The notes under the pieces: model-generated | Database searches by the model: none | The model's input: only the letters and a program-made list of their open reading frames with translations | What the model was told of the DNA's origin: nothing | Translations under genes and position numbers: made by a program | Assembly: GCF_001552155.1 (NCBI RefSeq) | Contig: NZ_BCQQ01000011.1 | Location: 1-64,000 of the forward strand | Origin: Actinomadura formosensis NBRC 14204 | GTDB taxonomy: Bacteria; Actinomycetota; Actinomycetes; Streptosporangiales; Streptosporangiaceae | DNA length: 64,000 bases | Reading direction: 5' to 3' | Shown here: positions 13,421 to 38,979 of the stretch, in pieces | Layout: each line of letters begins with the position of its first letter | How positions within the stretch are numbered: position 1 is the first letter of the stretch

Positions 13421-13554
13421 CCGCGCCCGTTCTTCCGTGTTCCGCCTGTTCGGGACGCCTCACGGAAGCACACGGCACCCCGGCCCCCCGCGACGGCGCG
13501 TAACACGATACGGTGAACCGTCCGACGGTTGATTCTCCGCCCTGGGAGGACGTG

Positions 13555-14318: not shown

Positions 14319-14897
14319 TCACCCGGGCAGGATGAGGTCCGCCGTCTCGGCGAGCCTGTCGGCCATGCCGGCATAGGACGTGTAGCCCATGCCCGCGTGC
14401 ACCAGCGCGCCGGTGCAGGCCAGCTCCAGCGCGCCGAGGATCTCGGGGGCGTCGTGGTCGCCGAGCGCGGCCCGCAGCCGCTCGCGGATCGCCACGCCGA
14501 TCCGCACCCGCAGCTCGCGGACGTCGGGATCGGTGCCGAGCAGCGCGGTGGTGCAGGCCGCGGCCAGCTCCGGCTCGTCCGATCCCAGCAGCGCGATCTC
14601 GCGCAGCGTCCCCGCCACGCGCTCGCGCGGCGTACCGTCCGCCGCGACGGGCGGCAGGGCGCTGAGCCGGCGCCAGAACACCTCGCTGATCAGGTGGTTC
14701 TTGGACGCGAAGTAGGTGTAGGCGGTGGCGGGCGCGACGCCGGCGCGCTTGGCCACGTTGCGGACGGTCAGGCCCTCGTAGCCGGTCTCGCCGACCTCCG
14801 CCACGGCGGCGTCGGTCAGCCGCCGCACGGTGCCGGCCTGCCGCTCGCTGAGGCGGCGGCGGGTGGGCTCGGTCGTCAGCCGCTCATTCCCGGACAC
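14319..14897 (-). CDS. TetR-family transcriptional regulator
   Basis: A 192-residue regulator. The N-terminal helix-turn-helix (about residues 20-70) is typical: LTVRNVAKRAGVAPATAYTYFASKN. The C-terminal ligand domain gives no hint of the effector. I place the start at the GTG at 14897; the frame is open further upstream through the tRNA genes and that part is not coding. No obvious partner gene is attached: it converges on the DUF3515 gene, and tRNA genes lie upstream on the same strand. It may repress itself through the inverted repeats at its start. Confidence 0.88.
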   Translation of the reverse strand: MSGNERLTTEPTRRRLSERQAGTVRRLTDAAVAEVGETGYEGLTVRNVAKRAGVAPATAYTYFASKNHLISEVFWRRLSALPPVAADGTPRERVAGTLREIALLGSDEPELAAACTTALLGTDPDVRELRVRIGVAIRERLRAALGDHDAPEILGALELACTGALVHAGMGYTSYAGMADRLAETADLILPG

Positions 14898-14921: not shown

Positions 14922-14973
14922 CGCCGGGGGGCAATCTCCCGCACGGGCCGGTGACGGACGAGGGGAATCAGGG

Positions 14974-15058
14974 TGGGGCGGGTGGGATTCGAACCCACTC
15001 AGTACAGAGACACCTGGGTTACAGCCAGGCCCGACTCTCCGGGCGTCGGCGCCGCCCC
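14974..15058 (-). tRNA. tRNA-Tyr (anticodon GTA), atypical
   Basis: An 85-nt cloverleaf with acceptor GGGGCGG/CCGCCCC and discriminator A. The anticodon arm is CCTGG-CTGTAAC-CCAGG and the T arm GTGGG-TTCGAAT-CCCAC. A variable region of about 14 nt makes it class II, as expected for bacterial Tyr. Odd points: position 8 reads C where U is nearly invariant, and the variable arm has only a weak stem. CCA is not encoded. It is the last of three tandem tRNA genes read leftwards. Confidence 0.75.
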
Positions 15059-15080
15059 GTGCGCGGGTGGACCCGCGTCG

Positions 15081-15153
15081 TACCTCCGGAGGGATTCGAA
15101 CCCCCATCGCACAGCACCTCATGCTGCCGTCTCTGCCGTTGGACTACGGAGGC
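15081..15153 (-). tRNA. tRNA with Leu anticodon GAG but short variable loop
   Basis: A 73-nt cloverleaf: acceptor GCCTCCG/CGGAGGT (G.U at the first pair), U8-A9, a D arm with GG at 18-19, anticodon arm GCAGC-ATGAGGT-GCTGT, a 5-nt variable loop, T arm GGGGG-TTCGAAT-CCCTC, discriminator A. The anticodon GAG would read CUC/CUU leucine codons. Bacterial tRNA-Leu normally has a long variable arm, which is absent here, so the amino acid it receives is uncertain. CCA is not encoded. Confidence 0.72.
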
Positions 15154-15158
15154 GTGCG

Positions 15159-15233
15159 TGCGGCTCCCGGGATTCGAACCCGGAACGTCCACTTCCTGAA
15201 AGTGGCCTCTCTTGCCGGTTGGAGTAGAGCCGC
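15159..15233 (-). tRNA. tRNA with Leu anticodon CAG but short variable loop
   Basis: A 75-nt cloverleaf: acceptor GCGGCTC/GAGCCGC, U8-A9, D arm with a 3-bp CTC/GAG stem and enlarged loop containing GG, anticodon arm CCACT-TTCAGGA-AGTGG, a 5-nt variable loop, T arm CCGGG-TTCGAAT-CCCGG, discriminator A. CAG reads CUG, a major leucine codon in this GC-rich DNA. Like its neighbour 5 nt away, it lacks the long variable arm of tRNA-Leu. CCA is not encoded. The 200 bases from 15234 to the kinase gene show no gene. Confidence 0.72.
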
Positions 15234-15434
15234 TGGGATCTCGCCAGGGTGGGCGCCGCTCGCGGCCTCCGGCCGGGGGTGTCAGGACACGGGATACCGG
15301 CCGGGGCGGGCGTGCGACGCCGAGGGCAGTCGAAGCCGATACTGCTCCAGAGCCATGGCCGGTCCTCCTCTCGATGTCTCGGACACCGTCCACGGTGCCA
15401 TCGGCGGCGAGACGGCCGCAACATGTTTTCCGGG

Positions 15435-38219: not shown

Positions 38220-38226
38220 CCAGGTG

Positions 38227-38299
38227 TACCCCCGAGCGGATTCGAACCGCCGTTACCGCCTTGAGAGGGCGGCGTCCTAGGCCACTAGACGACGGGGGC
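38227..38299 (-). tRNA. tRNA-Glu (CTC), copy 1
   Basis: A 73-nt cloverleaf with acceptor GCCCCCG/CGGGGGT and anticodon arm CCGCC-CTCTCAA-GGCGG, giving anticodon CTC. Sequence identical to the copy at 38811-38883. No CCA encoded. A terminator follows at once. Confidence 0.95.
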
Positions 38300-38701
38300 C
38301 GGACGTTGCGCCCGCGCGTTCTCCGCCCGGGCCTCGCCCAGCTTACCGGACGCCGCCCCCACCTCGAACCAGTTTCGCCCCGTACGCCCCGCAAGTCCCC
38401 CACGACCGGACACCTTGTCCCCCCGTGGCACGACTGCGGCCCTGATATGCCTTCCCACCGGGAGGAGACCATGCGACTGAAGCCGTTCACGCACACGGCC
38501 CCCACAGTTGCACACCCTCCCGCTTGATTACGCACACGGAGACGCTGCGGCGGTTCCCCTACTGGCAAGCCAAAGCCGAGCCTGAGGTGAATACCGAAAA
38601 CGGGCGGAGATGAACGCTCCCGCGCGTCCCGAGATCAAAGAACGAAGATCGCGAAACTGGGACGTCGCAGATTAAAGGCCCCCGTGCGGACCCCAGCCCA
38701 C

Positions 38702-38790
38702 GTTCGGGCGAAGCCCGAACACCGGGGGTTCCAGGGGGTCGCCCCCCTGGAAGAAATCGCGGGCCTCGGCGAAATCGAGCGAAGCTCGAT
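38702..38790. repeat. Three consecutive palindromes between the tRNA-Glu copies
   Basis: GTTCGGGC-GAA-GCCCGAAC (38702-38720), TTCCAGGGGG-(4 nt)-CCCCCTGGAA (38729-38752) and ATCGAGC-GAA-GCTCGAT (38774-38790) are perfect hairpins. The middle one shares the core GGGGGTCGCCCCCC with the repeat at 61712. The remaining 38300-38810 interval holds no gene that I can support. Confidence 0.7.
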
Positions 38791-38810
38791 GAGCACAAGG
38801 CCCCGCCACG

Positions 38811-38883
38811 TACCCCCGAGCGGATTCGAACCGCCGTTACCGCCTTGAGAGGGCGGCGTCCTAGGCCACTAGACGACGGGGGC
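38811..38883 (-). tRNA. tRNA-Glu (CTC), copy 2
   Basis: Identical to the copy at 38227-38299: acceptor GCCCCCG/CGGGGGT, anticodon CTC. It lies 24 nt downstream of tRNA-Gln. The duplication extends just a little beyond the gene (a TACCCCCGAGCGG end is shared), so it looks like a gene-sized duplication. Confidence 0.95.
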
Positions 38884-38907
38884 GTGGTCCGCCTTGGGCG
38901 GACGCAG

Positions 38908-38979
38908 CTGGGGTACCAGGACTCGAACCTAGACTAAGTGAACCAGAATCACTCGTGCTGCCGATTACACCATACCCCA
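38908..38979 (-). tRNA. tRNA-Gln (CTG)
   Basis: A 72-nt cloverleaf: acceptor TGGGGTA/TACCCCA, discriminator G, anticodon arm AGTGA-TTCTGGT-TCACT, so anticodon CTG. The Gln-Glu order is the usual actinomycete pairing. Confidence 0.95.

Follow-up and report, generated by a model that had tools for sequence, protein, structure and literature searches.

Across the genus Actinomadura, small operons of accessory tRNA genes are preceded by short leader open reading frames (ORFs) whose codons match the tRNAs encoded downstream, and we consider ribosome-mediated attenuation of these reserve tRNA operons, induced on depletion of the cognate tRNAs, to be the best explanation for this arrangement (with a probability of about 0.72, judged from sequence comparison). 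The observation rests on a trio of leucine and tyrosine tRNA genes, on their counterparts throughout the genus, and on further operon types that appear to be organized in the same way.

A conserved trio of accessory leucine and tyrosine tRNA genes

The window, that is, the whole stretch of 64,000 nucleotides from Actinomadura formosensis NBRC 14204 that was analysed, belongs to a draft genome of 7.08 Mb in 339 contigs (G000). It contains three tandem tRNA genes:

15158-15233, minus strand: tRNA-Leu(CAG)', class I, accessory (ARAGORN and Rfam RF00005; identity elements in 43/43 genus copies)
15080-15153, minus strand: tRNA-Leu(GAG)', class I, accessory (ARAGORN and Rfam RF00005; identity elements in 43/43 genus copies)
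14972-15058, minus strand: tRNA-Tyr(GTA)', class II with C8 (ARAGORN; C8 in 41/41 genus copies)

An earlier note on this DNA had described three tRNA genes, two of them class I Leu(CAG) and Leu(GAG) genes with variable loops of 5 nt, and both ARAGORN and the sequence itself bear this out, the loops being GCGAT and ACGTT. The two Leu genes scored 46.6 and 48.3 bits against Rfam RF00005; the Tyr' gene was not found in the window by this model at its threshold, and is called by ARAGORN. Both Leu genes carry U8-A9. Tyr' has the C at position 8 that the note had pointed out, a base kept in every Tyr' gene of the sampled genus loci, and, as the note also stated, CCA is not encoded. The long arm of Tyr' is ordinary, since bacterial tRNA-Tyr is normally class II (excerpts of PMC9976931). 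Besides the trio, the window genome encodes class II Leu genes with the anticodons CAG, GAG, CAA and TAG, and an ordinary Tyr gene, so that the check proposed earlier, for ordinary class II Leu(GAG) and Leu(CAG) and a second Tyr, found all of them present, and the window tRNAs are therefore extra. The bodies of these reserve tRNAs differ from those of the canonical tRNAs. Elsewhere in the window (38226-38979) lie two identical tRNA-Glu(CTC) genes and one tRNA-Gln(CTG) gene, all ordinary.

With the 262-base cluster as query, matches were obtained in 35/35 sampled congeners and, in a larger draw, in 55 of the 56 genus genomes including the window's own (E <= 1e-8), some of them partial in either sample; in that larger draw the match in G032 covers 54 query bases and G445 gave no match. 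A few other genera of this family also have matches of nearly full length. In the window, the trio has TetR, thiL, kinase and ddl genes as neighbours. Of 18 genus loci carrying the tRNAs, 14 have one or more of thiD, thiL, DUF3515, TetR, kinase, ddl and gpsA, two of these 14 probably representing the same genome. None of the tested neighbour genes was present at L320 (in G008), L326, L328 or L329 among the 18 loci examined. In G008, nine tRNA genes form an array that begins with the Leu pair, and Tyr' lies some 13 kb away. At L331 (in G032) the neighbour genes are present and the tRNA is not called by ARAGORN, and the Actinomadura records L123, L128, L133 and L159 have the tRNAs together with at least one tested neighbour gene. 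The idea that the trio is part of a present-day mobile element thus finds no sign in its favour, and the comparison of neighbour genes leads us to reject it for the loci with informative flanks. Indeed, with only three tRNAs and chromosomal neighbours shared in the genus, the window trio is not of the mobile tRNA-array kind. A gene for a TetR-type regulator (window 14319-14882) follows closely after Tyr' on the same strand, likewise in G005 and G020, and it is possible that it is co-transcribed with the tRNAs.

The judgement that the genes are functional rather than decayed is upheld by conservation, as U8, A14, A15-U48 and A73 are present, and all seven acceptor pairs formed, in 43/43 copies of each Leu gene. 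Decay of the trio is rejected on these kept identity elements and acceptor stems together with the near-universal occurrence in the genus. The trio has the look of a reserve set of tRNAs for leucine and tyrosine, intact and passed on by descent.

Class I leucine tRNAs and their probable charging

Class I tRNAs with leucine anticodons are found well beyond this trio. A class I Leu(CUN) pattern matched at least 117 stretches in genome contigs and at least 120 in viral contigs, where an earlier, narrower viral pattern had given no match. Such genes are present in actinophages and in a plasmid array of Nonomuraea, and kin in phages and tRNA arrays lend support to the earlier suggestion of accessory tRNAs that recall those of phages. 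Of 394 genomes sampled from the class, 256 matched a class I Leu(UUR) pattern, as did 95 of 137 genera, and the reversed-pattern control gave no match among the matches listed. In the complete congeners G005 and G020, ARAGORN reported nine class II-length hits each, namely five Ser, one Tyr, Leu(TAG), Leu(GAG) and Leu(CAG). Leu(UUR) is absent from all 18 of these hits, and both genomes carry class I Leu(TAA) and Leu(CAA); the class I genes therefore seem to read UUA and UUG. Consistent with a housekeeping gene, TATGAT is conserved upstream of class I Leu(TAA)' in three aligned loci, and the class I Leu(UUR) genes of Actinomycetes look like housekeeping tRNAs. This picture fits the statement, in an excerpt of PMC11541572, that in M. 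tuberculosis a long variable loop is found "especially" for tRNA-Leu-2, 3 and 5. A short-loop tRNA-Leu(TAG) is likewise described in a mycobacterial tRNA cluster (excerpt of PMC6582537). Because class I Leu(UUR) is widespread and this mycobacterial Leu(TAG) also has a short loop, a short loop on a leucine tRNA is not strange in itself in this phylum. The anomaly that the earlier note saw in the window pair thus stands as regards the 5-nt loop and is lessened as regards its rarity. The class I Leu(UUR) tRNAs resemble the window pair in short variable loop and D-arm type. They differ in that they are housekeeping-like, whereas the window pair recognizes CUN codons, supplements the ordinary set and lies behind a leader.

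Charging of the window pair with leucine is likely on sequence grounds. The determinants of E. coli LeuRS are A73, A15-U48, G18G19 and A20a, the long arm being dispensable (PMC9976931, as excerpted). Neither Leu' gene has the long class II arm, and A14, A15-U48, the D-loop GG and A73 are present in 43/43 genus copies of each. After A73 most genus copies run on CAGA or TAGA. Acceptor stems are fully paired in all genus copies of both genes (43/43 each). For Leu(GAG)' the T stem is fully paired in 41/43 and the D and anticodon stems in 39/43, shortfalls that arise in part because pairing was scored by a fixed-position parser and some Leu(GAG)' copies are longer than its positions allow. In other loci, A15-U48 occurs in 250 of 259 class I Leu genes versus 343 of 1027 other class I tRNAs, where the search pattern forced A15, though neither U48 nor A73, on many of these Leu genes. 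In the window genome a single LeuRS match exceeded the cut-off, and a dedicated second LeuRS is therefore rejected for it. G026, G029 and G034 (3/35 sampled congeners) have a second, diverged LeuRS in addition to the usual one. Given the conserved identity elements (PMC9976931, as excerpted) and the presence of class I Leu(UUR) in 256/394 genomes, the class I Leu' tRNAs are likely leucylated by the ordinary LeuRS, which agrees with the earlier suggestion of LeuRS-charged accessory tRNAs and makes it the most likely of those offered there, in view also of the single LeuRS match.

A leader ORF spelled in cognate codons

The most unusual part of the locus, which had gone unremarked in the earlier note, is a leader ORF upstream of the trio. 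It lies among several conserved or candidate control elements:

15418..15431, minus strand: putative promoter-like element GGAAAACATGTTGC, resembling elements ahead of other accessory tRNA operons
15392..15399, minus strand: putative -10-like element GGCACCGT
15364..15368, minus strand: Shine-Dalgarno sequence GGAGG of the leader ORF (from sequence; 43 aligned loci)
15282-15356, minus strand: leader ORF MALEQYRLRLPSASHARPGRYPVS (from sequence; also conserved ahead of the cluster in other genus loci)
15314..15321, minus strand: 5' arm GGCGTCGC of a conserved stem, beginning within the leader ORF (RNAalifold, 35 leaders)
15252..15263, minus strand: 3' arm GCGAGCGGCGCC of the conserved stem, ending 18 nt before tRNA-Leu(CAG)'

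The leader contains the Leu codons CTG, CTT and CTG and the Tyr codons TAT and TAT, all of which are readable by the three downstream tRNAs. In an alignment of the sequence ahead of Leu(CAG)' from 43 genus loci, a Shine-Dalgarno sequence (four bases at least 90% and one at least 70% conserved), a start codon and a short ORF are conserved. The 40 Leu/Tyr leaders together have 215 Leu and Tyr codons, of which 202 belong to kinds that the three tRNAs read. Codon use in leaders departs from that of ten reference genes of the window, with TAT:TAC at 69:5 vs 9:53, AGY:TCN at 82:21 vs 43:130 and CAT:CAC at 31:33 vs 7:90. Supply of tRNAs for rare codons was rejected as an explanation of the trio, CTG and CTC being the commonest Leu codons in the ten window genes. 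All 22 gap runs in the ORF alignment are multiples of 3, a result that carries no weight because the ORF length is divisible by 3 and the outcome is largely built in.

Further operon types with leaders of their own

At least three further operon types in the genus appear, from their sequences, to be built with leaders rich in their own amino acids. For example, the Ser(GCT)'-Met(CAT)'-Arg(GCG)'-His(GTG)' cluster has leaders such as MRRHRMRSSHSGLGSRRRT, and in G005 the Cys-Arg cluster is preceded by MTRCRGTRTAPRPRTTGRACR and the Ala-Gly-Gln cluster by MVTTIGRQARQPLGFGAGQGVALAGNASG. Where homologous clusters differ in their tRNAs, the leaders differ too, being MMRRRRRRDRDRDRARVTGPAAP for Asp-Arg, MSCLSCHRGDRPRTRTRATRRAAR for Asp-Cys-Arg and MIGTGIAKQAQQPQGRAFAARPRQGLAVPQGAPG for a nine-tRNA array; Infernal agrees on the tRNA numbers in the Cys/Arg/Asp loci cited here. 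When leaders were chosen by Shine-Dalgarno sequence, length and position, with composition not used, one was present in 40/43 Leu/Tyr, 26/30 Ser/Met/Arg/His, 12/17 Cys/Arg/Asp and 14/19 Ala/Gly/Gln-type loci. Under a looser Shine-Dalgarno rule a leader-type ORF is visible by eye in all 30 fetched Ser/Met/Arg/His loci. Such an ORF occurs in 3/39 canonical tRNA clusters under a slightly looser rule, these three being too few for a test of composition. The upstream ORF search gave no matching leader for Trp'-led clusters, no match for two single Asn', two Leu(CAA)' and two Gln(TTG) genes, and no leader candidate for the Ala'/Gly' pair of the window genome (L044). The Ser' cluster of the window genome (L036) contains at 13430-13502 a Met(CAT)-like tRNA with G8 and, by eye, an anticodon-stem mismatch, which ARAGORN misses.

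The content of the leaders follows that of the clusters. Comparing loci in which a given tRNA is present with those in which it is absent, the residue occurs in the leader in 8/8 vs 6/84 for Cys, 39/39 vs 2/53 for Tyr, 7/7 vs 4/85 for Lys, 4/4 vs 11/88 for Asp, 19/20 vs 15/72 for Met, 24/24 vs 37/68 for His, 7/7 vs 38/85 for Gln and 3/4 vs 11/88 for Phe, where the loci are related by descent, so that these and the other leader/tRNA counts are not independent events. Arg (39/39 vs 53/53) and Gly (15/16 vs 75/76) occur in nearly every leader and do not discriminate. Within the Cys/Arg/Asp type, Cys is found in the leader of 8/8 clusters with Cys' vs 0/4 without (Fisher 0.002). The within-family contrast for Lys is 6/6 vs 1/8 (0.005), that for Gln is suggestive (0.07), and those for Asp, Phe, Ala, Val and Met are not significant; Asp occurs in 4/8 Cys/Arg/Asp leaders that lack Asp'. 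For Met the contrast is less sharp, as some Met' genes are overlooked or wrongly labelled by ARAGORN. Five of the Ser-type loci have Met in the leader and no Met' call from ARAGORN, and at one of the loci whose leader has Met (L412) Met' is found neither by ARAGORN nor by Infernal. At L409 Met' is present and the leader has no internal Met, and L437 has neither, since Infernal finds only Ser, Arg and His genes there and the leader is without an internal Met codon.

Among 28 Leu-led clusters that have a leader, Tyr is in the leader of 23/23 with Tyr' within 160 nt vs 0/5 without, so that all 28 loci agree, 15 of them lying outside the set used for the residue-presence comparison (mostly new genomes) and 13 coming from genomes already in it. 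In the five clusters without a nearby Tyr', that gene is about 0.3 to 38 kb away. A permutation over 25 distinct combinations of family and tRNA set gave an observed match of 0.492 vs 0.316, which 0 of 5000 shuffles reached. In other genera, 14 of 81 multi-tRNA clusters have a leader (several being close relatives, e.g. from Lentzea), and again the observed match was reached in 0 of 5000 permutations. Among viral tRNA clusters, 12/187 have an ORF and the observed match was reached in 2811 of 5000 permutations, that is, there is no leader signal. Clusters with tRNA-matched leaders were also seen at L115, L117, L131, L135, L137 and L139 (Dactylosporangium, Lentzea, Actinophytocola), and a T-run precedes the tRNAs in 4/6 of these loci, as listed with a z cut-off.

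Promoter-like elements and terminators

A promoter-like expression (GTTGC or CTTGC, 15-20 nt, GGCA), devised after viewing these loci and matching 379 of 20000 random stretches as background, was found at 36/40 Leu/Tyr, 17/26 Ser, 7/12 Cys and 0/14 Ala/Gly/Gln loci. An intrinsic terminator lies before the first tRNA in 24/26 Ser-type and 13/14 Ala/Gly/Gln-type loci, and in 4/12 Cys-type and 2/40 Leu/Tyr-type loci. The outer pairs of the Leu/Tyr leader stem are formed in nearly all 35 leaders, with few pairs varying (RNAalifold). The window's own operon lacks a terminator with a U-run, and the conserved stem must therefore act otherwise or be Rho-dependent. In a fold simulation with a stalled ribosome, the terminator arm paired more with upstream sequence, barely above the level of shuffled leaders.

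Discussion

A leader built from codons that the trio reads suggests that these tRNAs are made only when the ordinary ones run short. In the mechanism that we propose, the operon would be driven by its own promoter-like element, followed by the leader peptide. As long as the ordinary tRNAs for Leu and Tyr are abundant and charged, a ribosome would clear the leader and transcription would stop before the tRNA genes. Once they are lost, for example through cleavage by a toxin, the ribosome would stall at the cognate leader codons, the leader RNA would refold and replacement tRNAs would be made. Judging by anticodons and identity elements, the class I Leu' tRNAs, leucylated by the ordinary LeuRS, would read CUG and CUC/CUU, and Tyr' would read UAU/UAC. 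Agents that deplete tRNAs are known in bacteria (excerpts of PMC6459853 and PMC10264068), and the divergent bodies of the reserve tRNAs may be suited to resisting them. In this scheme we predict that the leader is translated, that ribosomes stall on it, that antitermination follows and that tRNA loss is what sets it off. These predictions are made from the leader ORFs, their codon match, their joint change with tRNA content and the terminators of two operon types, all of which are evident in the genomes compared.

The same attenuators might instead be set off by ordinary amino acid shortage, with uncharged tRNA as the signal and a raised tRNA supply as the outcome, in which case no link to damage or defence would be needed. 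Classical attenuators do sense charging (excerpts of PMC1183508, and of PMC8632094 on cysS), and the present leaders would report any shortage of charged cognate tRNA. However, extra tRNA is useless if the amino acid itself is missing, and divergent bodies would fit the replacement of attacked tRNAs better than a change of dosage, so that we regard this reading as unlikely.

The relatives in phages, in a plasmid and in arrays, together with the G008 pair inside its nine-tRNA array, would also be expected if the genes were functionless leftovers of a mobile tRNA array, retained through drift. This is hardly credible for a cluster that is matched, at least in part, in 55/56 genus genomes, that keeps acceptor stems and identity elements in every copy of both Leu genes (43/43), and whose leaders change together with the tRNAs. 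Odd bodies, an enlarged tRNA set and the second, diverged LeuRS of three congeners could in turn be taken to indicate tRNAs dedicated to mistranslation, to recoding or to a pathway outside the ribosome, uses which the earlier note had also entertained. No feature pointing there was seen, and the one LeuRS match in the window genome, the retention of A73, A14 and A15-U48 in 43/43 copies and the agreement of the leaders with standard codon meaning make such a role very improbable. Attenuation that responds to depletion of cognate tRNAs therefore remains our preferred reading. A broader proposal, which we put forward tentatively and at slightly less than even odds, is that many actinobacteria carry an inducible second tRNA set, in which operon-specific leaders spelled in codons switch on resistant replacements upon tRNA loss, caused for example by toxins or a neighbour's ribonuclease.

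It has long been asked why extra tRNA sets are carried by phages, plasmids and bacteria. If our reading is true, the leaders monitor the codons read by the same tRNAs that they control. They would then reveal the purpose of those tRNAs, the replacement of lost ones, in a directly testable way, and would tell which tRNAs each bacterium expects to lose. The tRNA array units of mycobacteria, phages and plasmids (excerpts of PMC5966550 and PMC12803027) likewise consist of extra, structurally diverged tRNA sets, whereas here we find small operons with cognate leaders throughout one genus; the words "leader" and "promoter" have zero occurrences in the main text of those two papers. Phage tRNAs that evade anticodon nucleases (PMC10264068, as excerpted) are also diverged copies of essential tRNAs and possible replacements, but the present genes are bacterial and have leader peptides, and the viral clusters sampled are without a leader match.

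The operons trp, his and leu are ribosome-mediated transcription attenuators. With these and with uORFC-8-2 of cysS (excerpt of PMC8632094) the Actinomadura operons share a short leader ORF rich in regulatory codons, followed in most loci of two of the operon types by a terminator, and here too the leader codons appear matched to the downstream genes. The known attenuators control biosynthetic or synthetase genes, whereas in Actinomadura the controlled genes would be the tRNAs that read the leader codons, and the leaders, unlike those of trp, his, leu and cysS, often cover more than one amino acid. A literature search, mainly of openly available papers, showed among the matches listed none on the control of tRNA genes by leader peptides; as far as this limited search shows, these operons, if the reading holds, would be the first attenuators that act on tRNA genes.
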